Assembly (NCBI GenBank): GCA_027315345.1
Contig: DAHUYE010000054.1
Location: 1 to 50,932 of the forward strand
Direction: 5' to 3'
From: Actinomycetota bacterium
Lineage (GTDB): Bacteria; Actinomycetota; Acidimicrobiia; Acidimicrobiales; JAJPHE01
Length of the DNA stretch: 50,932 nt
Numbering within the stretch: the first letter of the stretch is position 1; each line of letters begins with the position of its first letter. This document shows positions 3,622 to 16,164 of this stretch, in pieces. A model generated the notes under the pieces. That model did no database searches. It saw nothing but the letters and a program-made list of their open reading frames with translations, and had not been told where the DNA came from. The translations under genes were made by a program, and so were the position numbers.

Positions 3622-3654
3622 CTTAATGTCCCCGTAAGGTGGGCCTCCTACGGT
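3622..3654 (+). promoter_or_regulatory. 11-base direct repeat and -10 box of the two-component operon
   Basis: CTTAAT (3622-3627) and CGTAAG (3633-3638) form a direct repeat with an 11-base period. Nine bases after the following G comes TACGGT (3649-3654), a -10 candidate. The leader to the GTG at 3721 is about 60 bases. The same layout precedes five other genes here, so autoregulation is inferred. Confidence 0.65.
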
Positions 3655-3720
3655 ACCTCGTAGCCGAGACCGGCGGCCTTGACGTTCGACGTCTCCCCGG
3701 CCAGATAGCAGGATCGGGCC

Positions 3721-4389
3721 GTGAGGATTCTGATAGCCGAAGACGACGCCGGCCTGCGCTCGGTCCTTGAACGCGGCCTCCGGGAGAACGGTTATGCGGT
3801 GGACGCGGTGGCGGACGGGAATATGGCCCTGGCCCACCTGCGCACTTACGACTACGGCGCGGTGGTGCTCGACTGGCGCATGCCTGGGGCATCTGGACTG
3901 GAGGTGGTTCAACAGGCGCGGGCCCGGGGCCTGGCCACGCCCATCCTTATGCTCACAGCCCGGGACACGACCTCGGATCGGGTATCAGGTTTGGATACGG
4001 GAGCGGACGACTACCTGATCAAGCCGTTCGACTTCTCCGAACTCCTGGCCCGCTTGCGGGCCCTCCTCCGCCGGCCGACCGAGACGCGGGGGCCGGTGCT
4101 GACTTGCGGAGATGTGAGCCTCGATCCGGCCACCCACGAGGCCCGGATCGGATCCGACCTGGTCGTTCTGACCTCCACGGAGTTCGCCATCCTCGAGCTG
4201 CTCCTGCGGCGAGCTCCGGCCGTGGCCGACCGGAGGATGATAGCCGTGCAGGTCTGGGACGAGGAGGCGGCGGCGGTGGGATCCAACACCATCGACGTGC
4301 ACCTGGCCCGGCTGCGTTCCAAGCTGTCCGGTGGCGGCACCCGGATCGAAACGGTCAGAGGCGTTGGGTATCGGATCGTCCCGGCATGA
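3721..4389 (+). CDS. OmpR/PhoB-family response regulator
   Basis: This 222-residue protein has a receiver domain (1-115) and a winged-helix DNA-binding domain (about 125-220). Acidic residues E7, D8 and D9, phosphoacceptor D51 (VVLDWRMPG), T79 and K101 (LIKPF) are all present. The output domain has STEFAILELLL and the recognition-helix region SNTIDVHLARLRSKL, ending in the usual ETVRGVGYRI. The start is GTG; a TAG in frame at 3706 excludes longer versions. Its stop overlaps the kinase start (ATGA), so the two are translationally coupled. OmpR-class proteins bind direct repeats of about 11 bases, and such repeats occur here and at five nearby promoters. The signal is unknown. Confidence 0.93.
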   Translation: MRILIAEDDAGLRSVLERGLRENGYAVDAVADGNMALAHLRTYDYGAVVLDWRMPGASGLEVVQQARARGLATPILMLTARDTTSDRVSGLDTGADDYLIKPFDFSELLARLRALLRRPTETRGPVLTCGDVSLDPATHEARIGSDLVVLTSTEFAILELLLRRAPAVADRRMIAVQVWDEEAAAVGSNTIDVHLARLRSKLSGGGTRIETVRGVGYRIVPA

Positions 4390-5705
4390 GGACCTCGGCC
4401 GGTAACAACCTCGCTCACTCCGCCCGGGTGGCCGCCATCGCCACCGTGGTGATAGCTGCGGTATACCTCCTGGCCGTCAGCGCCCTGGATGTCGTGGTCA
4501 ACGAGAGGCTGTCGGCTCAGGTCCGGACCCGGGTGGCCGCGGCCCTGGACCCCGACGTCTCCGTGGCCTCGGTCATTTCCCACGCCCAGAGCCTGCACCG
4601 GAGCGAGGACCCCGACGACGTTCCGGTGCTTCTCTGGGAGGTGGACTCCCAGGGTCGGTCTCGGGCGGTTACGGCCGGAGCGCCCGCCCTGCCGAGGCGG
4701 ACTTGGTCCACCGGTGCCATCACCCTGGGGATGGGTCCGAGCCCCTTCCACCTTCAGGCTCGTAAAGCTCCGGGAGGGGGCTGGCTGGTGGCCGGAGAAA
4801 GCCTGGCCGACGTCGGCCATGTCCGGTCGATCCTCCTCAGTTTCGAGGCGGTGGTTGGACCGATCATGCTGCTGGCGATCTTTCTCGGCTCCTGGGTCAT
4901 AGGGCTGAGCGCCTCCGCTCCGGTCGAACGGACTCGGCGACGCCAGCTCGAGTTTGCCGCTGACGCCTCTCACGAATTGCGCACCCCGCTCAGCGTGATC
5001 GAGGCCGAGGTTGGGCTGTCTCTCTCCATGCCTCGTCCCGCTCCTGACTACCGGGCTTCTCTCGAGCGGGTCTCGGCGGAAGGCCGGCGGTTGCGCAGGA
5101 TCGTGGAGGACCTGCTGTGGCTGGCCCGCTTCGATTCGGAGCCTCCCCCCCCGGGTGAGGAGCCGGTGGATGTTGCGGTCATCGCGTCCAGCTGCTCCGA
5201 ACGCTTCGCCCCGGTGGCCGAGGCCCGCCTGATCCACCTGGCGGTCGACTGCGCCGCGGATCCGCCCCCCCTGATCAAGGCCCCCCCCGAGTGGATCGAC
5301 CGCCTGACCGGTGTCCTGGTCGACAACGCCTGCCGCTACACCCCCAAAGGCGGGTCGGTGAAGGTGTCGGTGGCCTCGGGCGCCAGCCGGGTCGGCCTGA
5401 TCGTGGAGGACAGTGGTCCGGGTATCCCACCCGCCGAACGCGGCCAGCTGTTCGACCGATTCCACCGGCTCAGCGACGAGCCCGGGGGGGCCGGGCTCGG
5501 TCTGGCCATCGCTGACTCGGTCGTCAGGTCCACCGGGGGCCATTGGCGGGTTGGGGATTCAGCACTCGGGGGGGCCCGGATGGAGATCAACTGGCATAGA
5601 GCCGGGCCTTCGGAATGGACACCCCACCGGCGGAACCGCCATGGCTCGGGCCGGGCCGACACAAACATTGAGTCGCCCGCGCCGGCCCACGGGGTCTCCC
5701 GCTAG
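4386..5705 (+). CDS. Membrane sensor histidine kinase
   Basis: This 439-residue protein has transmembrane helices at about 15-36 and 154-175 around an extracytoplasmic sensor segment of about 115 residues with no recognised fold. Next comes the dimerisation H-box ASHELRTPLSVIE with phosphoacceptor H196. The ATPase domain has the N-box (LVDNACRYTPKG), G1 (VEDSGPGIPP), the F-box (LFDRFHR) and G2 (GGAGLGLAIADSVV). No clear HAMP domain is visible between TM2 and the H-box; the linker is short. It partners the response regulator upstream with a 4-base overlap. Its 3' end is 20 bases from the convergent DoxX-Rieske gene. Confidence 0.92.
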   Translation: MRTSAGNNLAHSARVAAIATVVIAAVYLLAVSALDVVVNERLSAQVRTRVAAALDPDVSVASVISHAQSLHRSEDPDDVPVLLWEVDSQGRSRAVTAGAPALPRRTWSTGAITLGMGPSPFHLQARKAPGGGWLVAGESLADVGHVRSILLSFEAVVGPIMLLAIFLGSWVIGLSASAPVERTRRRQLEFAADASHELRTPLSVIEAEVGLSLSMPRPAPDYRASLERVSAEGRRLRRIVEDLLWLARFDSEPPPPGEEPVDVAVIASSCSERFAPVAEARLIHLAVDCAADPPPLIKAPPEWIDRLTGVLVDNACRYTPKGGSVKVSVASGASRVGLIVEDSGPGIPPAERGQLFDRFHRLSDEPGGAGLGLAIADSVVRSTGGHWRVGDSALGGARMEINWHRAGPSEWTPHRRNRHGSGRADTNIESPAPAHGVSR

Positions 5706-5725
5706 CAGCTAGCTACCCCCGTTAG

Positions 5726-7003
5726 TCATTGGGCGTACAGGTCCCCGTCCGAGCCCTCGGCGATGGCGATGCGGGTCAGGCCGCTCGAAGCGGGCCCAAC
5801 GATCACCTCACCGGTCCGGGCGTCGAACTCCGATCCGTGGCAGGGGCATATGAACATCCGGTTGGACGAGGAGTACTCCACCGTGCAACCGGCGTGGGGA
5901 CAGACGGCGTCGAAGGCCAGAAAGGTTCCGCTGCTGGGCTGGATGACCAGGGCCGGGTCCCCGGTGCCGGGGTCCTGGAACGAGGCCGCACCTCCCACAG
6001 GGACGTTGGCGGCCGGTCCCAGCTTATGCCCGGCGGGATGACTGGGGGCAGAGGTACTGGCGGTGGTCCCGGCCGGGCCGGCGGGGGAAGTGGTGGTGGA
6101 GGTGCTACCGGTCCCGCCCGCCTCGAGGCTGGAGGATGACGCCACCGGGGTGGAGGCGCCGATCAGGCGGGCCAGCCCGGCAATGAGCCCGGACCCGACC
6201 AAGCCCGCCGCGCCCAGACCGGCGGCGGTCGTCCCCTTGAGGACCAGGGTGCGACGATCCAGGAAGGCACCCGCCCGCCGGCTCGGAACCGGAGGGGTGC
6301 GGCTGGCCAGGTAGGGGCAGGGTCCGGGTTCGCACGGAGCCCGGCGCCGGGCCGCGCACTCCCCCCCCTCGTAGGAACCGCATACGCGCTGGATATCCGA
6401 GAACAGGACAGGCACGGTCTGCTCGCCACCCAAGCCCTCCGACTGGCGAACCGCGTTGGCCAAAACGGCATCCATCGACAGCGCTCCTGGTTCGGCCACC
6501 AGGAAGGGGAGCCAGGCGAAGACGAAGACGATGTCAGAACCGGTGTAGTAGGGATTGGTGTGGAAGCTGACAGCCAGGAACAGACTGAGAGAGATCAGAG
6601 CCCCGCCGGCCGCGGCCAGCCGGCTGAACAGACCGGCCAGGGTGCCGAGGCCGACGGCCAGCTCCCCGAGCGCAATGAGGATGCCGAGAGGTACGGCCAG
6701 ATGGACCAGCGGATGGATGAAGGCGTGGATGGGGCTGCGATGGCTGGCCGCCAGCAGCTGGGCCTGGATCGAGGCTGGATTGCTCGAGTGGAAGAAGGCG
6801 GGATTGGCCAGCTTCTGAAGTCCGGCGAAGCAGAAGGTCAGGCCCAGGAAGACCCGGAGGGGTAGGAGGGCCCACGAGGCCAGGTGCCGAGATCGGGGCG
6901 GAGGAGCCAGCCAGAGCCAGGACGTTCCATCGGCGCCAGCGACGGACCGAGTGGGCCGGGGCTGAGGGCCCGGGCGAGGAGGGGCGATGCGGCGCTGGTT
7001 CAT
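5726..7003 (-). CDS. DoxX-like membrane domain fused to a Rieske [2Fe-2S] domain
   Basis: This 425-residue fusion starts at ATG 7003, preceded by GGAG at good spacing. Residues 42-185 form a four-helix DoxX/DoxD-like domain. A loop with C208, C216, C224 and C229 follows, then a Tat-like RRTLVLKG and a hydrophobic helix (about 248-282). A Ser/Thr/Pro linker leads to the Rieske domain, with ligands C368/H370 (CPH) and C386/H389 (CPCH) and the disulfide pair C373/C388, as in respiratory Rieske proteins. The likely role is electron transfer at the outer face of the membrane. The cytochrome b-like gene ends 19 bases upstream, so the pair probably forms one redox unit. Donor and acceptor are unknown. 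Confidence 0.85.
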   Translation of the reverse strand: MNQRRIAPPRPGPQPRPTRSVAGADGTSWLWLAPPPRSRHLASWALLPLRVFLGLTFCFAGLQKLANPAFFHSSNPASIQAQLLAASHRSPIHAFIHPLVHLAVPLGILIALGELAVGLGTLAGLFSRLAAAGGALISLSLFLAVSFHTNPYYTGSDIVFVFAWLPFLVAEPGALSMDAVLANAVRQSEGLGGEQTVPVLFSDIQRVCGSYEGGECAARRRAPCEPGPCPYLASRTPPVPSRRAGAFLDRRTLVLKGTTAAGLGAAGLVGSGLIAGLARLIGASTPVASSSSLEAGGTGSTSTTTSPAGPAGTTASTSAPSHPAGHKLGPAANVPVGGAASFQDPGTGDPALVIQPSSGTFLAFDAVCPHAGCTVEYSSSNRMFICPCHGSEFDARTGEVIVGPASSGLTRIAIAEGSDGDLYAQ

Positions 7004-7022
7004 TCGGGCTCCGTTTTCGGGC

Positions 7023-7649
7023 TCAGTGAAAGAAGTGCGGAGATCCCGCCAGATAATGGTTGGCCCGCCCGACCAGGATGAGTCCCAGACCAAGACCACC
7101 ACCCAGGCTGAGCAACTGGAGAAGACCGCGGCCCCCGCGGCCGGAGAGCCGCTGGCGGGTCGGGCCGGCCCAATCCCGGATGGCGAGCCGGGCCGTCTCG
7201 CTCAGATGGCCGAGGACGTGGATGGTCATGGCGCCGAACCAGAGGACGAAACTGGCCTTATGAACAAACAGCACGTTCGAGCGCAGCGACCCGCTCACGA
7301 AGAGAAGGAGCACGCCACTGGCCAGGAGTAGAACGGTCAGACCGACCACGACCGGGCCCAGAAACCGCAGTACCCAAGGCGGAGGGCCCTTCAATCGGTA
7401 GGCGGGGTCCCCCAGGTAATAACGGACGAAGCGCCAGCCCGTACTGCCCATCTTGAGCAGCACCGGTGGGATCAGCAGCGCCCCGATGAAGACATGAGCG
7501 CTGAGCAACGATCTCACCCTCAGGACGGTGACCCCCTCGGCGGCCAGAAGGAAGAGCAGCACCGCGGCGGTGGTGGCGGTTAGGCTGGCGTTGCGTTCCA
7601 CTCCTCCACGCCTGGGGGCGCGGCGCGTCTGCGATGTCGACACTCCCAT
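7023..7649 (-). CDS. Cytochrome b-like multi-helix membrane protein
   Basis: This 208-residue protein has four to five hydrophobic helices (about 24-46, 48-66, 96-118, 126-150, 176-194). H52, H130, H144 and H148 lie in or at the ends of helices and are candidates for binding b-type heme, as in small cytochrome b561- or ferric-reductase-like proteins. The family is not certain. I prefer ATG 7649 over GTG 7670 because TACGCT lies 8 bases upstream of the ATG, which fits a leaderless transcript. It shares its promoter with the downstream DoxX-Rieske gene, so it probably passes electrons to or from that protein. Confidence 0.7.
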   Translation of the reverse strand: MGVSTSQTRRAPRRGGVERNASLTATTAAVLLFLLAAEGVTVLRVRSLLSAHVFIGALLIPPVLLKMGSTGWRFVRYYLGDPAYRLKGPPPWVLRFLGPVVVGLTVLLLASGVLLLFVSGSLRSNVLFVHKASFVLWFGAMTIHVLGHLSETARLAIRDWAGPTRQRLSGRGGRGLLQLLSLGGGLGLGLILVGRANHYLAGSPHFFH

Positions 7650-7657
7650 CGCCCCCC

Positions 7658-7690
7658 AGCGTAGAGTCACATCCTTAAGGTCCGATGAAG
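7658..7690 (-). promoter_or_regulatory. 11-base direct repeat and -10 box of the cytochrome b/DoxX-Rieske operon
   Basis: On the reverse strand CTTCAT (7690-7685) and CTTAAG (7679-7674) repeat at 11 bases. Nine bases after the following G is TACGCT (7663-7658), and 8 bases later the ATG at 7649. Layout and spacing equal those at the response regulator promoter. Confidence 0.6.
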
Positions 7691-7699
7691 GCCGGTTTT

Positions 7700-7732
7700 C
7701 TTCATCCTGGCTTCAGGCGGGTCCTTTACCTT
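7700..7732 (+). promoter_or_regulatory. 11-base direct repeat and -10 box of the glycosidase-like operon
   Basis: CTTCAT (7700-7705) and CTTCAG (7711-7716) repeat at 11 bases. Nine bases after the following G is TACCTT (7727-7732), and 7 bases later ATG 7740. It is back to back with the site at 7658-7690, so both divergent genes carry their own copy. Confidence 0.6.
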
Positions 7733-7739
7733 TCATCCC

Positions 7740-8969
7740 ATGGTTGCCATCCACCGGCCCCCGCCGGCCCCTCCCACCGATGGGCCCCGCCGGTCGTCTC
7801 CGCTCCCGGTACGACGCCGACGCCGTCGGATCCGGCGGACCCTGGCCGGCCTGATGGCGGTGGTGCTGGTAGTCGTGGGAACTTCCTTCGTCACCTCGGT
7901 CTATGGCCAGCCCGGGTCTCTCGGAGCTCGAGCGGCGGAGTGGGTCCGCGATCACGGGGGGTCCCAGCTGGTGGCGGCAGCCGAGAACCTCTGGTACTCC
8001 CATCACCAGCCCCCGGTCGGAGGCACGCCCAAAGCCGGGCTCATCCCGAATCCGTCGTCAGCGGCGGCGTCATCCTCGACCCGAACGGGTCCGGCCCACC
8101 TCCCGGAGCCGGCCCCGATAGTCCCAATCGCCTCCCCGCCACTGCCCGGTGAGGGCCTGTGGCACCCGGCCGGCCGGACGGTGGGTGGGATTCCCACCAT
8201 GTATGAGGCCTTCCTGCGGCCCGATCCGGTCCACACCAGTCTGGTGGCCGGGGTGGCCTGGATGGACACCAAGCTGCTGCGGGCCTCGCTCTATTCCGGC
8301 AGTTACATTCCCGGTGGCGGGCCTTGGGCTCTGTCGGCGCCGATCGGCGCCGGAGCGGCTACCACGGTCACGGCCGCATTCAACTCCGGCTTCCGTCTGA
8401 AGGACTCCCAAGGGGGCTACTACACCCAGGGACGGGTGGTGGCGCCCCTGCGGACTGGGGGTGCTTCGGTGGTCGTCTACAGGAACGGCTCCATTACGGT
8501 GGGACAGTGGGGACGAGATGTCTCCATGACGCCGGAGGTGGTAGCCGTTCGCCAGAACCTGCGCCTCATCGTGGACGGGGGTGCTCCGGCTCCGGGGCTC
8601 TCGTACAACGGCGCCTGGGGCGGCACGATCGGTAATCAGGTCTACGTGTGGCGCTCGGGCCTGGGCGTCACCGCCGATGGGGCCCTGGTCTACGTCGGAG
8701 GCCCGGGACTCGACGTCCCCTCACTGGCGGGCCTGCTGGTCCGGGCCGGAGCGGTGCGAGCCATGGAACTGGACATCAACACGGACTGGGTAAACTTCAC
8801 CGCCTACTCCCCCGCCACCCCCGGGACAGCCGCCAGCCCGAACAACGGGACGGAACTGTTGTCCGCCATGTCGGGCGGGCCGGGGCGATACTTCCTGCCC
8901 AATTGGAACCGTGACTTCTTCACCATGTCCGTGGCCCCGTCCACAAGCACTGCGCGCCGGCCGTCCTGA
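7740..8969 (+). CDS. Phosphodiester-glycosidase-like (NAGPA domain) membrane-anchored protein
   Basis: This 409-residue protein has a basic N terminus, one signal anchor (about 37-55), a proline-rich linker and a C-terminal domain of about 270 residues. The latter resembles the NAGPA/DUF2233 family, which hydrolyses sugar phosphodiesters. Matching landmarks are AFNSGFRL (near 213), LIVDGGAPAPG, and the MELDINTDW block near 341 where the family has its conserved Asp. It would act outside the membrane, perhaps on wall polymers or exopolysaccharide; the substrate is inference. ATG 7740 lies 7 bases after a -10 box. The next gene begins 59 bases before this one ends, so they are co-transcribed. 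Confidence 0.78.
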   Translation: MVAIHRPPPAPPTDGPRRSSPLPVRRRRRRIRRTLAGLMAVVLVVVGTSFVTSVYGQPGSLGARAAEWVRDHGGSQLVAAAENLWYSHHQPPVGGTPKAGLIPNPSSAAASSSTRTGPAHLPEPAPIVPIASPPLPGEGLWHPAGRTVGGIPTMYEAFLRPDPVHTSLVAGVAWMDTKLLRASLYSGSYIPGGGPWALSAPIGAGAATTVTAAFNSGFRLKDSQGGYYTQGRVVAPLRTGGASVVVYRNGSITVGQWGRDVSMTPEVVAVRQNLRLIVDGGAPAPGLSYNGAWGGTIGNQVYVWRSGLGVTADGALVYVGGPGLDVPSLAGLLVRAGAVRAMELDINTDWVNFTAYSPATPGTAASPNNGTELLSAMSGGPGRYFLPNWNRDFFTMSVAPSTSTARRPS

Positions 8970-9951
8970 CCGACCCGGCCGGGCCTGGCTGGGCCTCGTC
9001 GCGCTTCTGGCGACACTGGCCGCCTGCGCGGCCCCGGCCCGAATCTCTAAGCCGGGAGCTGCTTCGGCTCCCTCGACGAGGGATCCGACCACGTCAACCT
9101 CGGCCGGGCCGCCCCGCATCAACCAGGTTCAGCTGGACCTGGTTGAGCCGGTTACGGGGTCAAGTCCCCGGAACATACCGGTGTACGTCTTCTACCCAGA
9201 CCCGGCTACGGCCGGCGCCGCCAAGCCGATGCCCCTGGTCGTCTTCTCCCCCGGCTACGACATCGACCCTCTCAGGTACAGCCCGTTGCTGGTGGCCTGG
9301 GCCCAGGCCGGTTACGCGGTGGCCGAGCCGGAGTATCCCCACACCTCGCCCGGGACTCCTGACGGCCTGGACGAGTCGGACATCCTGAACCACCCCAAGG
9401 ATCTGGCCTTCGTCATTTCCCAACTGACGGCTCCCCGCCCGTCCCTGCTACCGCCCGGACTGAGGCTGATCGGGCCCGGAGACGTGGCCGTAGCCGGCCA
9501 CTCGGACGGAGGCGACGTGGCTCTGGCTCTGGCCGCCAACCCGTGCTGTCGCTTCTTCACACCTCGCGCCGCCGTGATCCTGTCCGGAGCCGAGCTGGCC
9601 AGTTTCGGGCCCGGCTATTTCACTGACAGTCCTGTCCCGATGCTGGTGGTGCAGGGAACGACGGACAGCATCAACCCGCCCGGGTGCAGCACGGAACTGT
9701 ACGATCAGGATCAAGGGCCCAGGTACTACCTCAGCCTGGCCGGTGAAGACCACCTCGGGCCCTATACCGCCGGCGGGCCGGTCGACTCGGCGGTGGACAT
9801 GGTGACCATCGCTTTCTTCGATCGCTACCTGCGTGGTCAGTCCTCGGCCCTGGCCCGGGCTCCAGCCGGGGTGGCGGGCGTAGGCACCCTGGTGGCGGGA
9901 GGAACCGTTCCTCAAGCGCCCGGGGGCTGCCCCGGAGCGCCGGCGCCCTAA
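8911..9951 (+). CDS. Secreted lipoprotein alpha/beta hydrolase
   Basis: This 346-residue protein begins at a GTG inside the preceding gene. A signal peptide ends in a lipobox with C39 (LAAC), so it should be attached to the outer face of the membrane. The hydrolase core has FSPGYD (oxyanion strand region), nucleophile motif GHSDGG near 196, an Asp candidate in QGTTDSINP near 250 and a His candidate in GEDHLGPY near 280. That is the order of a dienelactone-hydrolase or PAF-acetylhydrolase-like esterase. The substrate is unknown. The 59-base overlap with the glycosidase-like gene implies coupled expression. Its stop overlaps the convergent SGNH hydrolase gene by 4 bases. Confidence 0.85.
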   Translation: MTSSPCPWPRPQALRAGRPDRPGRAWLGLVALLATLAACAAPARISKPGAASAPSTRDPTTSTSAGPPRINQVQLDLVEPVTGSSPRNIPVYVFYPDPATAGAAKPMPLVVFSPGYDIDPLRYSPLLVAWAQAGYAVAEPEYPHTSPGTPDGLDESDILNHPKDLAFVISQLTAPRPSLLPPGLRLIGPGDVAVAGHSDGGDVALALAANPCCRFFTPRAAVILSGAELASFGPGYFTDSPVPMLVVQGTTDSINPPGCSTELYDQDQGPRYYLSLAGEDHLGPYTAGGPVDSAVDMVTIAFFDRYLRGQSSALARAPAGVAGVGTLVAGGTVPQAPGGCPGAPAP

Positions 9952-11345
9952 GGGTTGGGAGGGGGGTACCCGGGGCCGGGCGTGAGACAGCCGGGGGTCG
10001 GGGTGATCGGCAGGTGGGGCAACTGGGGCGCAGCCGGGAGGCCCAGGAGGGTCGTGGGGACCGAGTCAGCCAGGACGGTGTCCCCCGCCGCGTTGGGATG
10101 GAGGTGGTCTCCAGAGTCAAAGTCGGGGTACAGCGCATCCGGCTGACAGGCTCCGTTATAGACATCGGCCACGCTGGCGGCCAGGTCCATCACTCCGTCA
10201 AAGCCGCCCGCTTCCAGTATCCACTGGTCAACCTGGGTCAGAGCGGCCTGCTGAGCCGGAGTCCAGAGCTCCTCTCCGGTGCGCCGGGGCAGCAGGGTGG
10301 CCAAGATGATCCGCTTACCGGCGGCATGGACGGCCGAAGCCAGTTGGTTGTAGCCGGCTATCAGCTGGGAGGCGGGTGCACCGAACCACAGGTCGTTGGT
10401 GCCCAACAGCACGATTACGTCAGAGATGCCCGCCAAGTCGATGACATCCGGCCCCAACCGGGTCACGCCGGGGGCGCCACCGCCGGTCGTCTCGTAGTCC
10501 CGCGGAACAGCAGTGAGTGTGTTGGCCGTGATCGCCTCGTTCACCACCGCCACCCGATCGGCAGGTGGGAGGAGATCGATGCGCTGCTGGAGCAGCTCCG
10601 GCCAGCGTGCCGTGCTGTTGTAGCCGTCGCTGATGGAGTCGCCCAGGACCACCACCCCTGGCGGGGCAAAACTGAGGACGTCGACAGCATCGACCAGACG
10701 GGACCAGGGACTGGCATAAGGCAGCGCCGCGGAAGAAGCGTCGCTGGTCAGGTCCCCGGCGCCGTTTCCGGCGAAGTACGACACCGGAGCCAAGCAACAG
10801 GGATGGACCGTCATCAGGTCAGGACCCCGAACGAAGACGCTGACCGCCAGTATCTGGCCGGCCGTCAGCGGCATGGCCAGGGGGTCGGAGTACAGCTCTG
10901 CCCCGACCGGAATCACCACCGATGGCGATCCGGCGAAGGCCAGGGGCTGGGCCGGGCCGGCCAGCGAGCCGTGCAACCCGGCCGGGGCCACCGTGACGGC
11001 CCCTACCATAAGAGGCCGGTTGCCATACAGGTTGGACAGCCTGACCCTGAGGGCCGATCCACTCACCGACACGGTGAGCACCTGACGGACGGTCGTGTCC
11101 ACCGCCTCCCCGTAGCCCCAGGCCATGGCGGAACCCCAGGCGGTGCGCCACTGGGGGGCGGGGGCGGTGGTGGGGGGGCTGGTGGTGCTGGCGTGGGCGG
11201 CAGACCCGGCCGGGGTGCCGCGCCGGGCGGCGGGGTCGACGGTACCGCAGGCGGCCAGAACAGCCGCCATGCCGACCACGGCCAAGAGCGGAGCGACCCG
11301 AAAACGTACCCTCCGTGCCCATGGGCCCGGAGGGGGGCGGCCCAT
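9948..11345 (-). CDS. SGNH/GDSL-family lipoprotein hydrolase
   Basis: This 465-residue lipoprotein has a signal peptide with lipobox C33 (LAAC) and a Thr/Pro linker. A beta-rich domain follows (TVRQVLTVSVSG, LRVRLSNLYG), as seen ahead of many SGNH esterases. The SGNH core has block I VVLGDSISDG with the nucleophile Ser, the Asn block LLGTNDL, and a final D-x-x-H type block (SGDHLHPNAAGD). It probably deacylates a cell-surface or environmental ester, perhaps a polysaccharide O-acetyl group. ATG 11345 shares its last base with the methyltransferase TGA (TGATG), a re-initiation arrangement. A longer frame upstream is discounted because it would bury the signal peptide. Confidence 0.85.
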   Translation of the reverse strand: MGRPPPGPWARRVRFRVAPLLAVVGMAAVLAACGTVDPAARRGTPAGSAAHASTTSPPTTAPAPQWRTAWGSAMAWGYGEAVDTTVRQVLTVSVSGSALRVRLSNLYGNRPLMVGAVTVAPAGLHGSLAGPAQPLAFAGSPSVVIPVGAELYSDPLAMPLTAGQILAVSVFVRGPDLMTVHPCCLAPVSYFAGNGAGDLTSDASSAALPYASPWSRLVDAVDVLSFAPPGVVVLGDSISDGYNSTARWPELLQQRIDLLPPADRVAVVNEAITANTLTAVPRDYETTGGGAPGVTRLGPDVIDLAGISDVIVLLGTNDLWFGAPASQLIAGYNQLASAVHAAGKRIILATLLPRRTGEELWTPAQQAALTQVDQWILEAGGFDGVMDLAASVADVYNGACQPDALYPDFDSGDHLHPNAAGDTVLADSVPTTLLGLPAAPQLPHLPITPTPGCLTPGPGYPPPNP

Positions 11346-12181
11346 CAATCCCGGGCTACCCCCGAGTTGACCGCCCAGCCGCCCGGCCGGACCCCGCGGA
11401 CAATGGATGCTTCGGCCAATACCGGAGCCGCGGTCACCTCGACCAGGCCGGCCTCCTCCAGCAGCCGGACCCAGCGAGCCGCCGGAAGAGGCATCTCCTG
11501 CACCCGCAGGAGGAACCGGGCAGCGTTCTTGGCGATCCGCCACCAACCCCCGGGGCCTTTGCGGGCCAGGGCTCTCACCTTGTCGGCGATGATTCGTCGG
11601 TCCTGTTGGGTTGCGCCTCGTCCGAACATCATGTCTCCCACCAGCAGCACACCGCCCGGCTTAAGCCATCGGGCTGCCGACCGGATCAGCTCCTGCTTGT
11701 CACTGTCGCGCAGGTGGTGAAGAGCGTAGTTGGAGATGACGGCATCGAGGCTCTGGTCCGGGAAGCGCATCAGCTCCGCCGATGCCGTCACCACCGTAAG
11801 GTTGTTGAGCCCCGCCTCCTCGGCCAGGGCCCGGACACCCCGGGTCATGGCCGGGCTGACGTCGACGGCTGTCACCGTAGTGCCCTGCAGGGCCAGGGGA
11901 AGAGCCAGGGTCCCCGTACCGCACCCGATATCCAGGACATGGGCCCCTGGGCCGCGGGGCGTCTGGCGCAGGATCTCGTCGACCACGGGCTGGACGGAAA
12001 CCCCCCCGTGATGGCCCCAGGAGGAAGCCCGGCGGGTCCATACCAGCCGCTGGACAGCCGCGGCGGCCCGGCTCAGCACTGACCGCCCGGAGCGGCCAGA
12101 AGGGGCCAGCAACCCGGGCGGGGCGTCACCTATGTGGGCGGTTCCAACGACAGGATTCTTACCAACTGCATCCGACGGCAC
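11345..12181 (-). CDS. Class I SAM-dependent methyltransferase
   Basis: This 278-residue protein has motif I VLDIGCGTGTLALPLA near residue 84, the acidic strand VTAVDVS, then NLTVVTASAELMRFPD and the motif IV-like LDAVISNYALHHL, followed by LKPGGVLLVGD. This is the UbiE/type 11 methyltransferase pattern. The acceptor is unknown. I choose GTG 12181 because it lies 8 bases after CATTGT in the -10 position of a leaderless promoter; a TTG at 12193 is the alternative. It is coupled to the downstream SGNH hydrolase lipoprotein, so the two may act on the same envelope or lipid product. Confidence 0.85.
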   Translation of the reverse strand: MPSDAVGKNPVVGTAHIGDAPPGLLAPSGRSGRSVLSRAAAAVQRLVWTRRASSWGHHGGVSVQPVVDEILRQTPRGPGAHVLDIGCGTGTLALPLALQGTTVTAVDVSPAMTRGVRALAEEAGLNNLTVVTASAELMRFPDQSLDAVISNYALHHLRDSDKQELIRSAARWLKPGGVLLVGDMMFGRGATQQDRRIIADKVRALARKGPGGWWRIAKNAARFLLRVQEMPLPAARWVRLLEEAGLVEVTAAPVLAEASIVRGVRPGGWAVNSGVARD

Positions 12182-12189
12182 ACCTGCAC

Positions 12190-12222
12190 ACAATGACGCC
12201 CCAGGCTTACGGGAGCATTACG
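12190..12222 (-). promoter_or_regulatory. 11-base direct repeat and -10 box of the methyltransferase/SGNH operon
   Basis: On the reverse strand CGTAAT (12222-12217) and CGTAAG (12211-12206) form the clearest 11-base repeat in the window. Nine bases after the next base is CATTGT (12195-12190), then 8 bases to GTG 12181. Confidence 0.65.
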
Positions 12223-12247
12223 ACCGATATCAACCCGTCAGTGCGCC

Positions 12248-12253
12248 TACCGT
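12248..12253 (+). promoter_or_regulatory. Leaderless -10 box of the GNAT gene
   Basis: TACCGT (12248-12253) lies 6 bases before ATG 12260, where a leaderless transcript would begin. No properly spaced ribosome binding site is present; GAGG is only 2 bases from the ATG. Confidence 0.45.
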
Positions 12254-12259
12254 GAGGTC

Positions 12260-12949
12260 ATGGACGGCCAAGTTAGGGTGGCGAAGATGCTGCCGCCCGA
12301 TGCGACCCGGGCCGCAGCCATTCACCACGATGTGCTGGGGGCCGAGTTCATAACCCGGGCCGGACCCCGATTCCTGCGGCGCTACTACCTGGCCTGGATG
12401 CGCAGCGACGGGGGGATGGCCCTGGCGGCCCGAGTCGACGGCCAGGTCGTCGGCGCCCTGCTCGGCTCCATCCGCCCGGCCCAGCACTACCGGAGCATGC
12501 TCCGGCGGGACGGTTGGCGCCTGGGGGCCTTGATGCTGGGCCGGAGCCTGGCCCATCCTGGCTTCGGCGCCGAACTCTTCCTCACCCGGGGTATGCGCTA
12601 CAGCCGGGCCCTGCTCCGGATGGCGCGCACCCGCCTGTCGACCCACCCGCCCACGGGCGGGCCAGTAGTTCCTCCGGTCCCCGCCCTAAACCGTTCCGCC
12701 ATCGGGGAGGTGACCCACGTACTGGTGGATGCCGCCTACCAGGGCCGGGGAGTGGCCCGGGCCCTTCTGGCCGAAGCCGAGGAACAGGCCGGCCGGGCCG
12801 GCCTCCATCGCCTGGTCCTGGTGACCACGCCGGAACTGGCCCGCAGCGGTCTCTACGAGCGGCTGGGTTGGACGCCCCAGGGTCAATTGGCCAGTGGCAG
12901 CGGGGAAGAGTTCTGGCGCTACGAGCGGGACGTTTCCGGCCGGACCTGA
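12260..12949 (+). CDS. GNAT-family N-acetyltransferase
   Basis: This 229-residue cytosolic enzyme transfers an acetyl group from acetyl-CoA to an unknown amine. The acetyl-CoA site is in the C-terminal half: THVLVDAAYQGRGVARALL gives motif A (Q-G-R-G-V-A), with HRLVLVTTPE and the closing SGLYERLGW typical of the fold. The N-terminal part contains FLRRYYLAWM and repeated Arg/Gly-rich stretches. It is divergent from the methyltransferase gene and convergent with the kelch lipoprotein gene. Its own -10 box is at 12248-12253. The 11-base repeat lies on its upstream side but points the other way. Confidence 0.82.
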   Translation: MDGQVRVAKMLPPDATRAAAIHHDVLGAEFITRAGPRFLRRYYLAWMRSDGGMALAARVDGQVVGALLGSIRPAQHYRSMLRRDGWRLGALMLGRSLAHPGFGAELFLTRGMRYSRALLRMARTRLSTHPPTGGPVVPPVPALNRSAIGEVTHVLVDAAYQGRGVARALLAEAEEQAGRAGLHRLVLVTTPELARSGLYERLGWTPQGQLASGSGEEFWRYERDVSGRT

Positions 12950-12964
12950 ACCTTTCCCTGCGGC

Positions 12965-14887
12965 TCAGCCGGTCTGGGGGTGGGTCGGGGTAGAGCCATT
13001 CGGCCAGAGGAGATCGAAACCATCCGGGGTGTTGAGTTGGTCGGGACCGGTGCCGGCCAGTCCCGTCTGGCCGTACTGCCAGACGATGCGGTCGTTGACC
13101 GGGTCGATGAGCAGCACGCGGTCCCGGTAATCGTCATTGACGCCGATCAGCCCGTTCGGCAGGCGTTCGGCCAGACTGGGGTGATCCAGCATCCCATCCC
13201 CGCTGATGACGTGATAGCTCCAGAGGATGTCGCCTGCCCGGTTGAACTCGTAGATACCCCCTGGGTTGGAATAGTCCGCGATCAAGTAGAGGTCCGGACC
13301 GATCTGCTGGGGGTCAGAGGGATAACCGATGGGAAGTTGGACGGTCCAGACCAGATTCCCTGTCCGGGTGTACTCGGACACCCAAGAGCCGTGGATCTCC
13401 GAGATCAGAAAGTCTCCGTTGGCCAGTGGGGTGTCACCGTTGGGATATCCCAAGCTGGCCGGGGGGTTGTGGACACAGTTACCGGTCGCACCGATCTGGC
13501 CCGACGGAACCCCCGAGGGGTCGATGAAGAGGATCCGGCAGTTCAAGGCATCGGCCACAGTGATGGTGCCGTCCTTGAGCAGATAGGCGTCATCGGGTTG
13601 GTCCAGGTAGCCGGCGGCAGAGCCGGGTAGACGGGGGTGTCCGTAGCTCCAGAGGATCTTTCCGGACGGATAGGCGATCTGGACGATGGTGTTGTTTTCC
13701 TCTTCGTTGGAGATGATCTCCGTCCCCTTGCGGGCGAAGAAGGCGTCGTCAGGGAAGTAGAAGCCGCCGGGCGGGGCCGGGGCCGAGGCCGAGGGATACG
13801 TCCAGAGAATGGCTTTGGCTGGGTTGACCAGGATGAGGCGGTTGTTGCCTCGATCGGCAATCAGCAAGTGCCCGGTAAAGGGAGCGCCCTGGGCGGCCGA
13901 GGAGGACACCTGGGCGGCACCACCCGCCGGACGAACCGAGGTCACGCCCGTGACCGGATTGCCAGAGAGTTCGCCACCCACCAGAAAAGTGGCCTCTCCG
14001 ACCTGGGTCACCGAGGCATCGGAAACCGGATAAGGCAAGACGTCAGGGGTCAGGGTGGCCCGGTTAGCTCCCGGTGCGTAGCGCCAGATCGAAGTCAAGG
14101 TGGTGGTGCCACTGACACCGCCGAGCAGGTAGATCTGACCACCGACAGTGGCAGCCATACCGTGAGCCCACGGCTCAGGCAGATGGCCGACGATCCGGGT
14201 CCGCCCCGAGCGAGGATCGAATTCCTGGATCAGGGTCGTCTGGCTCGATCCGGAGGGGGTTGTCCCCCCGAACAGATAGATGAGACCCCCCGCTGCCGCC
14301 ACGGCGGCATAGCGGACAGGCTGGGCCAGCTGGCCGACCGTGGCGAAGGATCGTCCATCTGAAGTGGCCAGGATGCTGGGATCGCCCGTGCTGCCGTCGT
14401 AGCCGCCCAGTATGTAGGCCCGGCCCCCCAGGACCACGGCCGAGAGGTCGGAGCGTGGCTTGGGCAGAGTCCCGATGACCTGGCCGCCGGCCGTTCCGAA
14501 GCTCTGGGCGGTCGCTACCGTGTTCGGGGAGCCTCCGCCGAACACCAGAGCGGAGCCGCCCAGGGACACGGCGGCGGCGTCATGGACGCCCACGGCCAGC
14601 TGGCCGGCCGGGCTGAGGTGCCCGGTCCTCGGGTCCAGATCGAACACCCCCGATACGGTCGATTGGCCCGCCGTGAGGCCGCCCATGATGCGAATGGCGC
14701 CGCCGGCGGAAACGGCCACGGCCCGGGACAGGGGAGCCGGCAGTTGGTAGGGCTCCGAGAAGGCGACTATGCGCGGCGGGGAGGCCGGGCGGCGGGGCGC
14801 CGACACCGGTCGGGAACTCGAGCAGGCCGCCACCAGGGCCAGAAGAACGATGAGGGCCGGCCCCGCCCTCCGACCGCTCATGGACAT
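12965..14887 (-). CDS. Two-propeller lipoprotein: kelch domain plus NHL-like domain
   Basis: This 640-residue lipoprotein (lipobox C22, VAAC) has two halves. Residues about 45-330 form a kelch-type propeller with repeats built on GG-x-IYLLGG or RAYILGGYDG. Residues about 345-635 form a second propeller of NHL/PQQ-like blades: LLIADRGNNRLILVNP, ILWTYP, PDDAFF, LNCRILFIDP, NGDFLISEI, DRVLLIDPVNDRIVWQYG. The second half is closely similar to the divergent gene at 15025-16164, so one arose by duplication with domain gain or loss. No catalytic motif is seen; binding of surface ligands or a scaffold is likely. The leader is about 54 bases from the -10 box. Confidence 0.82.
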   Translation of the reverse strand: MSMSGRRAGPALIVLLALVAACSSSRPVSAPRRPASPPRIVAFSEPYQLPAPLSRAVAVSAGGAIRIMGGLTAGQSTVSGVFDLDPRTGHLSPAGQLAVGVHDAAAVSLGGSALVFGGGSPNTVATAQSFGTAGGQVIGTLPKPRSDLSAVVLGGRAYILGGYDGSTGDPSILATSDGRSFATVGQLAQPVRYAAVAAAGGLIYLFGGTTPSGSSQTTLIQEFDPRSGRTRIVGHLPEPWAHGMAATVGGQIYLLGGVSGTTTLTSIWRYAPGANRATLTPDVLPYPVSDASVTQVGEATFLVGGELSGNPVTGVTSVRPAGGAAQVSSSAAQGAPFTGHLLIADRGNNRLILVNPAKAILWTYPSASAPAPPGGFYFPDDAFFARKGTEIISNEEENNTIVQIAYPSGKILWSYGHPRLPGSAAGYLDQPDDAYLLKDGTITVADALNCRILFIDPSGVPSGQIGATGNCVHNPPASLGYPNGDTPLANGDFLISEIHGSWVSEYTRTGNLVWTVQLPIGYPSDPQQIGPDLYLIADYSNPGGIYEFNRAGDILWSYHVISGDGMLDHPSLAERLPNGLIGVNDDYRDRVLLIDPVNDRIVWQYGQTGLAGTGPDQLNTPDGFDLLWPNGSTPTHPQTG

Positions 14888-14941
14888 CCCTCCGACGCGC
14901 TCACGGACGTCGACGGCCGGGCCCCATGAACATGACGCCCG

Positions 14942-14975
14942 AGGATAGGCCGCCGCACCTTACGGGCTGATTACG
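14942..14975 (-). promoter_or_regulatory. 11-base direct repeat and -10 box of the kelch lipoprotein gene
   Basis: On the reverse strand CGTAAT (14975-14970) and CGTAAG (14964-14959) repeat at 11 bases. Ten bases after the following G is TATCCT (14947-14942), the best -10 box of the set. Confidence 0.65.
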
Positions 14976-14993
14976 AGACATGGTTGTGGGTTC

Positions 14994-15026
14994 CTTCATG
15001 CTCGCGTAAGGTTCGGAGGAAAAGAT
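14994..15026 (+). promoter_or_regulatory. 11-base direct repeat upstream of the NHL-like lipoprotein gene
   Basis: CTTCAT (14994-14999) and CGTAAG (15005-15010) repeat at 11 bases. At the usual 9-base distance is AAAGAT (15021-15026), a poorer -10 box that overlaps ATG 15025. If it works as a promoter, the transcript would begin near a second in-frame ATG at 15037. Confidence 0.5.
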
Positions 15027-16164
15027 GCAGGCGGTCATGGTGTACGGGCGAGGGCGGACGTGGGTGGCGGCCCTCTTACTGGTTGTCGTGGTGAGCGCAT
15101 GCGGCACCGCCTCCCACCCGCCCCCGCCGCATGCGTCTGCCGCCGTTCGGCCCACCGCTCCTTCTGTTCCAGACGCTTTCGCCCACCCACTGAGCGCAGC
15201 CGAGCTCCAGCCCGGCTCGGACCCCTCCGTTCTGCCCGGGCCGGTTCTCATAGCCGACCGCTCGAACAACCGGCTGATCGTGGTTGATCCGAAGGGCCAG
15301 GTCACCTGGACCTTTCCGCGACCCGGAGATCTTGCTCCGGGCCAAACTTTCCTGATCCCCGACGACGCCTTCTTCACGCCGGATGGCAAGGAGATCGTGG
15401 TGACCGAAGAGGATGACTTCGTCATCAGTGTCATCGATGTGGCCACCCATCGGATTGTCTACCGGTACGGAACGCCTGGGTCCGAGGGCATGGGACCCAA
15501 TCAGCTCTGGAACCCCGACGACGCCATGATGCTGCCCGACGGGTACATCATCAGCCCCGACATAAAGAATTGCCGGATCCTGCTCATCGCTCCGGGTTCA
15601 CACGCTCCCGCATCGGTCATCGGCACCTCGACCAACTACTGCTATCACGCCCCGCCGGTTCGTTGGGGAAGTCCGAATGGAGCCTTCCCGATGACCAATG
15701 GTCATTACCTCGTAACCGAGATCAACGGGGACTGGGTCGACGAAATCGACTTGAGTGGCCATGTCTACAGTTCCTTCCACCCACCGGGCGTGACCTATCC
15801 CTCCGATAGCAACGAAGTCAGCCCCGGGGTCTACGTGACGGTCAGTTACACCGATCCGGGCGTCTTGGAGACGTTCAACTCCAGCGGCCAGCTGTTATGG
15901 CGTTACGCCCCCTTGGCGGGACAACCCCAGCTGAATCAACCGTCCCTGGCCGAGCCCCTGCCCAACGGTGATTTCCTCCTGAACGATGACAAGAACAATC
16001 GTGTGATCGTCATCGACCCCCGGACGGACCAGGTCGTTTGGCAGTACGGGGTCACCGGCCAGCCTGGCTCATCCCCGGGCTACCTGGACCAGCCCGACGG
16101 CGTCGACCTGGTGCCCCCGTATTCGCTGGACATGCGCCACGCCTCCACCATGGGACAGCCCTAG
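15025..16164 (+). CDS. NHL/PQQ-like propeller lipoprotein
   Basis: This 379-residue lipoprotein (lipobox C26, VSAC) carries one propeller made of repeated blades: VLIADRSNNRLIVVDP, VTWTFP, PDDAFF, IKNCRILLIAP, NGHYLVTEI, NGDFLLNDDKNNRVIVIDP and TDQVVWQYG. It matches the second half of the neighbouring kelch fusion blade by blade. It should sit on the outer face of the membrane, probably in binding rather than catalysis. GGAGGA lies 4 bases before ATG 15025 and supports that start; an ATG at 15037 would fit a leaderless message. The P450 gene follows after 49 bases on the same strand. Confidence 0.83.
   Translation: MQAVMVYGRGRTWVAALLLVVVVSACGTASHPPPPHASAAVRPTAPSVPDAFAHPLSAAELQPGSDPSVLPGPVLIADRSNNRLIVVDPKGQVTWTFPRPGDLAPGQTFLIPDDAFFTPDGKEIVVTEEDDFVISVIDVATHRIVYRYGTPGSEGMGPNQLWNPDDAMMLPDGYIISPDIKNCRILLIAPGSHAPASVIGTSTNYCYHAPPVRWGSPNGAFPMTNGHYLVTEINGDWVDEIDLSGHVYSSFHPPGVTYPSDSNEVSPGVYVTVSYTDPGVLETFNSSGQLLWRYAPLAGQPQLNQPSLAEPLPNGDFLLNDDKNNRVIVIDPRTDQVVWQYGVTGQPGSSPGYLDQPDGVDLVPPYSLDMRHASTMGQP

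Follow-up and report, generated by a model that had tools for sequence, protein, structure and literature searches.

Within the OmpR/PhoB family of response regulators, the PhoB operators have an 11-bp period and a set distance to the -10 box. PhoB itself binds its direct repeats as a head-to-tail dimer over the -35 region and contacts the sigma factor from there (PMC3348028). In parallel, the operators of PmrA, also named BasR, were described as direct repeats of YTTAAK with a 5-bp gap in Salmonella, as CTTAAT/CCTAAG in K. pneumoniae and as TTTAAG-N5-TTTAAG in A. baumannii (PMC10927774), and the base or groove contacts of PmrA were assigned to Asn188, Asn196 and Arg210, in addition to the hydrophobic residues Thr187, Val192 and His195 (PMC4660055). 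Regarding promoters, most primary start sites of M. tuberculosis were found to have a TANNNT hexamer centred 7–12 bp upstream (PMC3898074). Finally, MsrQ-like flavinylation clusters of Actinobacteria, with ApbE, PF01794 MsrQ-like, NuoF-like and VIT1 partners, are presented in the sections considered here of Meheust et al. 2021 (PMC8238504), and these sections mention no regulator of the clusters.

In the window, which is the whole stretch of 50,932 nucleotides that was analysed, the pattern CKTMAT-N5-CKTMAG occurs six times, as compared with a mean of 0.04 (maximum 1) in 100 dinucleotide shuffles, and allowing one mismatch adds no further match. These are the six direct repeats that a preliminary description had placed upstream of six genes or operons, and all of them are indeed found at those positions and on those strands, in intergenic DNA and oriented toward the gene named in each case (Table 1). 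The same description gave the gap between the repeat and a TANNNT-like -10 box as 9 or 10 nucleotides at every site; we measured 10 nt everywhere except at 14975, where it is 11 nt, and a true TANNNT stands at four of the sites (TACGGT, TACGCT, TACCTT and TATCCT), whereas the hexamer is CATTGT at 12222 and AAAGAT at 14994. Because AAAGAT overlaps the GGAGG-ATG that forms the Shine-Dalgarno sequence and start of the 14994 gene, the promoter of this gene is not confidently placed. By the position of the boxes, the regulon in the window would comprise the regulator with its kinase, the cytochrome-b-like and DoxX-Rieske proteins, the NAGPA-like protein with the hydrolase that follows it, the methyltransferase with the SGNH hydrolase, and the kelch and NHL/PQQ-like lipoproteins. 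We consider it very probable, from the sequence comparisons described below, that the six elements are the operators of the OmpR/PhoB-family regulator encoded at 3721–4389, which would work by PhoB-like class II activation at mostly leaderless promoters to govern a redox-type regulon.

Table 1. Direct-repeat boxes and genes of the locus, in window coordinates. Scores were obtained with the matrix built without the window sites.
Feature	Position	Strand	Promoter, start or domain details	Bits
Direct-repeat box CTTAAT-GTCCC-CGTAAG, upstream of the response regulator	3622..3638	+	-10 TACGGT 3649-3654	31.3
OmpR/PhoB-family response regulator (proposed DNA-binding protein)	3721..4389	+	Response_reg and Trans_reg_C	
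Sensor histidine kinase	4386..5705	+	HisKA and HATPase_c; 4-nt overlap with the regulator	
DoxX-Rieske fusion protein, second gene of its operon	5726..7012	-	homologues with their own box in L092, L099, L101	
Multi-span membrane protein, b-type-cytochrome-like	7023..7649	-	no Pfam hit; homologues in other genomes have the box (e.g. L141)	
Direct-repeat box, cytochrome b/DoxX-Rieske operon	7674..7690	-	-10 TACGCT 7658-7663; ATG 7649 8 nt after the -10	30.5
Direct-repeat box, phosphodiester-glycosidase-like gene	7700..7716	+	-10 TACCTT 7727-7732; ATG 7740 7 nt after the -10 (predicted leaderless)	24.6
NAGPA-domain (phosphodiester glycosidase-like) protein, secreted/anchored	7740..8969	+	PF09992	
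Alpha/beta-hydrolase-like protein, downstream of the NAGPA gene	8911..9951	+	weak Chlorophyllase match below cut-off	
SAM methyltransferase	11345..12181	-	followed by GDSL/SGNH hydrolase 9948-11546	
Direct-repeat box, methyltransferase/SGNH operon	12206..12222	-	-10-like CATTGT 12190-12195; in-frame GTG 12181 8 nt after	
Kelch/NHL-repeat lipoprotein	12965..14887	-		
Direct-repeat box, kelch lipoprotein	14959..14975	-	-10 TATCCT 14942-14947, 11-nt gap	15.9
Direct-repeat box before the NHL/PQQ-like lipoprotein	14994..15010	+	no TANNNT; box 26.1 bits (best of the six)	19.3 (full matrix)
NHL/PQQ-like beta-propeller lipoprotein	15025..16164 (start 15025 or 15037)	+	weak PF13360; predicted lipobox VSAC	

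A leave-out matrix, trained on 28 sites from other genomes and on none from the window, recovered all but one of the six sites, gave no further match above 9 bits in the window and left the reversed window empty. The site at 12222 is the weakest of the six, with 10.6 bits for the box, -3.6 bits for the -10 hexamer and a total below 9 bits. In 0.65 Mb of reversed control DNA the matrix gave 0 matches at 12 bits or more, and it therefore does not hit random sequence. The genome scans were carried out with a curated 34-site model that includes the window sites and that replaced a first matrix iteration, which had drifted in AT-rich genomes; the independent evidence consists of the leave-out tests together with the sites found outside the training set.

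The window's own genome (3.84 Mb) was scanned by pattern and by profile, giving 11 pattern matches, six of which fall within these 11.4 kb. The regulon is mostly local, as had been supposed, but not entirely so, given that the only other strong site of this genome, which is absent from the training set, lies on contig C96 before a paralogue of the NAGPA phosphodiester glycosidase gene. The other exact matches (contigs C16, C30 and C48) are without promoter-like context and look like chance occurrences. Likewise dismissed as not regulatory were three near-identical 17-mers (L324-L326) in genome G052, which has no regulator orthologue among the matches; they are copies of a coding repeat within a long repetitive protein. 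A weaker box of the own genome, CGTCATCTGACCGTCAG, with TACGGT 10 nt further on, lies below the genome-wide threshold at L127:9269-9285 (contig C63), in the gap ahead of a gene resembling penicillin-binding protein 2.

The orthologues of the regulator, found in Acidimicrobiales-type MAGs, show 53–76% identity with E values from 1e-105 to 2e-73, and a gap separates them from all weaker matches; regions of up to 20 kb around them were taken for comparison. When half-site pairs were counted in the 33 orthologue loci at periods 6 to 20, there were 41 pairs at period 11 and at most five at any other period. For the spacing counts, 43 boxes were picked by their half-sites alone, with no -10 required, and in 26 of these 43 boxes TANNNT follows the 17-mer at a distance of exactly 10 nt, in two at 11 nt, and at any other offset in one at most. 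No -35-like element stands at canonical spacing, the gaps of the two half-sites to the -10 being 21 and 10 nt, and the sequence between and around the half-sites varies freely among sites. The spacing is therefore kept upstream of the orthologues, and the PhoB-class geometry that had been claimed for the window, with an 11-base period, about 10 nt to the -10 and the -35 element replaced, is borne out by the relatives: these are two direct half-sites at an 11-bp period and a fixed distance of about 10 nt to the -10, as in class II operators.

An ATG or GTG follows the -10 hexamer by 6–8 nt in 22 of the 43 boxes, and the starts of the NAGPA-like, cytochrome-b-like and methyltransferase genes of the window (7, 8 and 8 nt, respectively) fit the same distance. 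Given where TANNNT lies relative to most primary start sites in M. tuberculosis, the box promoters are most simply read as leaderless, and this suggests that most of them are both leaderless and activator-dependent. A kelch homologue in locus L094 also has the site, followed by a GTG that is predicted to be leaderless. In the window, leaders of about 60 nt for the regulator (3721) and of about 50 nt for the kelch gene (14887) are predicted. In the latter leader, a short frame on the reverse strand (14901-14933; ATG TTC ATG ... TGA, MFMGPGRRRP) begins 8 nt after the kelch -10 and ends just before the kelch gene, and it is possibly a leaderless leader peptide or a product of chance.

Four lines of evidence connect the boxes with this regulator: their joint occurrence, the box ahead of the regulator gene itself, the distribution of the box among NAGPA homologues (see below) and the similarity to PmrA. 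The full motif with its -10 gave 27 matches in 32 regulator-positive genomes (17 genomes hit). In 38 genomes of this order that lack the regulator it gave two, as many as the backward control; the corresponding Fisher p = 7e-6 is optimistic because the compared genomes are related and many of them are incomplete. The matches thus gather around the regulator orthologues, and genomes of the order that lack the regulator have hardly any. In addition, when each locus was left out of the training, the box within 300 bp upstream of the regulator itself scored among the top 5% of windows at 24 of the 33 loci; nine of the 33 loci have no convincing box before the regulator, several of these nine having none at all. 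The recognition helix is almost invariant among the orthologues. Assignment of the boxes to this particular regulator, which the preliminary description offered as an inference, is strengthened by its own upstream box, by the near-invariant helix and by the similarity to PmrA.

This similarity is partial. The regulator has both domains of the OmpR/PhoB family above cut-off (PF00072, 97 bits; PF00486, 71 bits), the closest solved chains are those of BasR/PmrA (8jo2 and 4s04), and the 6-bp direct half-sites with a 5-bp gap are of the kind found in the enterobacterial and Acinetobacter systems. The regulator group keeps Asn188, Val192 and Arg210 of PmrA, but His195 and Asn196 are mostly replaced by Ala and Arg, or otherwise by Gly and His, and because of these changes we regard the specificity as related to that of PmrA without being the same. 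The operator is likewise different, being based on KTMA, with half-sites that mostly read TTCA (first) and GTMA (second), instead of YTTAAK; the promoters are mostly leaderless by prediction and carry TANNNT; and the targets are redox, membrane and secreted proteins, whereas those of PmrA serve lipid A modification, for which no genes adjoin the sites in the window or among the targets of the relatives. The group therefore departs from PmrA (BasR) orthologues in its operator, at the Asn196 contact (Arg, in a few cases His) and in its lack of lipid A targets. We infer that Arg at position 196 of PmrA may be tied to the drift of the operator from TTAA to TTCA. With respect to the Pho box of PhoB, the half-site sequence is another one, and no phosphate genes were recognised among the local targets. 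In the next-closest regulators, with 52% identity (L122 and L123), CTTCAT-N5-CTTCAT repeats lie at about -134 and -40 from the start of their own regulator gene, which suggests a related operator in a sister system and possible cross-talk. As for the partner kinase, its extracytoplasmic region (approximately residues 35–150) has no Cys in the window sequence, and conserved Asp, Pro and Trp positions are seen in this part in an alignment of 33 orthologues.

Sites were also located in the relatives. Of 28 NAGPA homologues in regulator-positive genomes, 13 have the site, as compared with 0 of 15 in regulator-negative ones. Sites precede NAGPA genes in G047 (contig 17), L095, L098, L100 and L102. 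Other sites stand before cytochrome b (G105, L091, L092, L100), DoxX-Rieske (L092, L101), kelch (L094), VIT1 (L101) and UbiA-type prenyltransferase genes (L106), and, in G197, before a ferric reductase with a FAD domain; those before NAGPA in G047, cytochrome b in G105, the ferric reductase in G197 and the NAGPA paralogue of the own genome lie outside the training set. In L120 and L186 the box heads operons in which a small membrane protein is encoded along with ApbE and with MsrQ-like (PF01794) and NuoF-like (PF10589) proteins, and in L189 it heads ApbE and PF01794 genes. These box-headed operons share ApbE, PF01794 and NuoF-like genes with the MsrQ-like flavinylation clusters, at least as those are presented in the sections of PMC8238504 considered here, and VIT1 is another target in common. 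The target set matches these clusters, and the likely role of the regulon would therefore be the control of extracytosolic electron transfer. The window differs from them in having cytochrome b and DoxX-Rieske genes in place of ApbE: there is no apbE in its regulated locus, and the three ApbE loci of the own genome are on other contigs and without a site, so that the redox reading rests mainly on the relatives.

As for the mechanism, the partner kinase would phosphorylate the regulator, two molecules of which would then bind the half-sites head to tail, on one face of the double helix and one turn (11 bp) from each other. From this position, the tandem DNA-binding domains over the -35 region would contact sigma and RNA polymerase, thereby recruiting the polymerase to a promoter that lacks a -35 element and has TANNNT as its -10 at a distance of 10 nt. 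Most of these promoters would initiate transcription on the start codon or right beside it, yielding leaderless mRNAs, and the genes thus controlled would be the regulator itself together with the membrane and secreted genes. The comparisons establish the motif and its geometry, their conservation, the joint occurrence with the regulator and what the targets are. It is from these that we conclude that this regulator probably binds the boxes, that it would activate its targets and not repress them, that the transcripts would mostly begin leaderless and that the regulon would have a redox role.

It could be argued that another OmpR/PhoB-family regulator encoded in this genome binds the boxes and that the nearby regulator is merely one of its targets, given that the genome has many OmpR-family proteins (42 first-look candidates) and that the paralogue loci L122 and L123 have similar repeats near their own regulators. 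We find this quite unlikely, since the motif tracks this particular orthologue across the order, being found in its upstream region in most loci, while the almost invariant recognition helix and the PmrA type of the operators fit this protein. OmpR-family regulators can both activate and repress, and the regulator might thus repress its targets, or activate some and repress others, instead of standing in for a -35 element. The 14994 box, lying directly 5' of the ribosome-binding site, would suit a transcription-blocking operator, but the strict 10-nt gap to the -10, with the box always upstream and in one orientation, is the geometry of a PhoB class II activator, and the promoters are devoid of a -35-like element at canonical spacing, all of which makes repression, whether of all or of some targets, unlikely.

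Activation by the regulator must also be weighed against explanations in which no response regulator takes part. A fixed spacing to a -10-like hexamer is equally demanded by sigma factors, and the element could in principle be the -35/-10 signature of an alternative one; however, it consists of two similar half-sites at period 11, whose gaps to the -10 are unusable as those of a -35 element, and it follows a response regulator across genomes, so that a sigma-factor promoter was rejected on spacing and is very improbable. That six sites lie so close together might even suggest chance similarity or a spread-out repeat element. To this we attach practically no weight, because the shuffled windows contain next to no matches, because the flanking and inter-half-site sequences differ freely while the spacing is kept in many genomes, and because the leave-out matrix refutes it for at least five of the six sites.

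Activation of these genes by the regulator of the locus would therefore define an OmpR/PhoB-type regulon with PmrA-like operators and a coherent set of targets, apparently undescribed so far; our literature search found no described regulon for this widespread and poorly cultured Actinomycetota group. It offers a complete and testable regulon, with its regulator, operator, promoter geometry and targets, and a predicted instance of leaderless promoters under class II activation, besides a matrix that can be used to annotate the regulon in dozens of genomes. It also links a two-component system to extracytosolic electron transfer of the ApbE/MsrQ type, the regulation of which is not discussed in the considered sections of PMC8238504. 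A more far-reaching proposal, to which we give about even chances, is that this undescribed Acidimicrobiales two-component system is devoted to controlling extracytosolic electron transfer by flavin and heme (ApbE, MsrQ-like, NuoF-like, cytochrome b and DoxX-Rieske) working via activator-dependent leaderless promoters and sensing an extracytoplasmic redox or metal signal, with an operator that drifted from the PmrA type (TTAA to TTCA) as Asn gave way to Arg in the recognition helix.

Some minor observations were made along with these results. The first gene of the ApbE/MsrQ-like operons (L186:10026-10346, L190:10014-10385, L120:10426-10797 and L118:10506-10865) codes for a small protein that seems to cross the membrane once and has a low-complexity linker, and in several of these operons it overlaps the start of apbE. 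This protein has no Pfam hit, an FMN-binding domain included, and many copies end in SGAT, SGAS or SGST(MP); judging from its sequence, it may be a minimal flavin acceptor that is borne on a flexible arm and has no FMN-binding domain. In L102 and L186, NAGPA-like genes adjoin ApbE or share an operon with ApbE, MsrQ-like and NuoF-like genes, which suggests that the role of the NAGPA-like family may be tied to flavinylation or to envelope redox. Finally, a short tandem repeat of CACTGG, in about four copies, is found upstream of the locus at 2265-2290.
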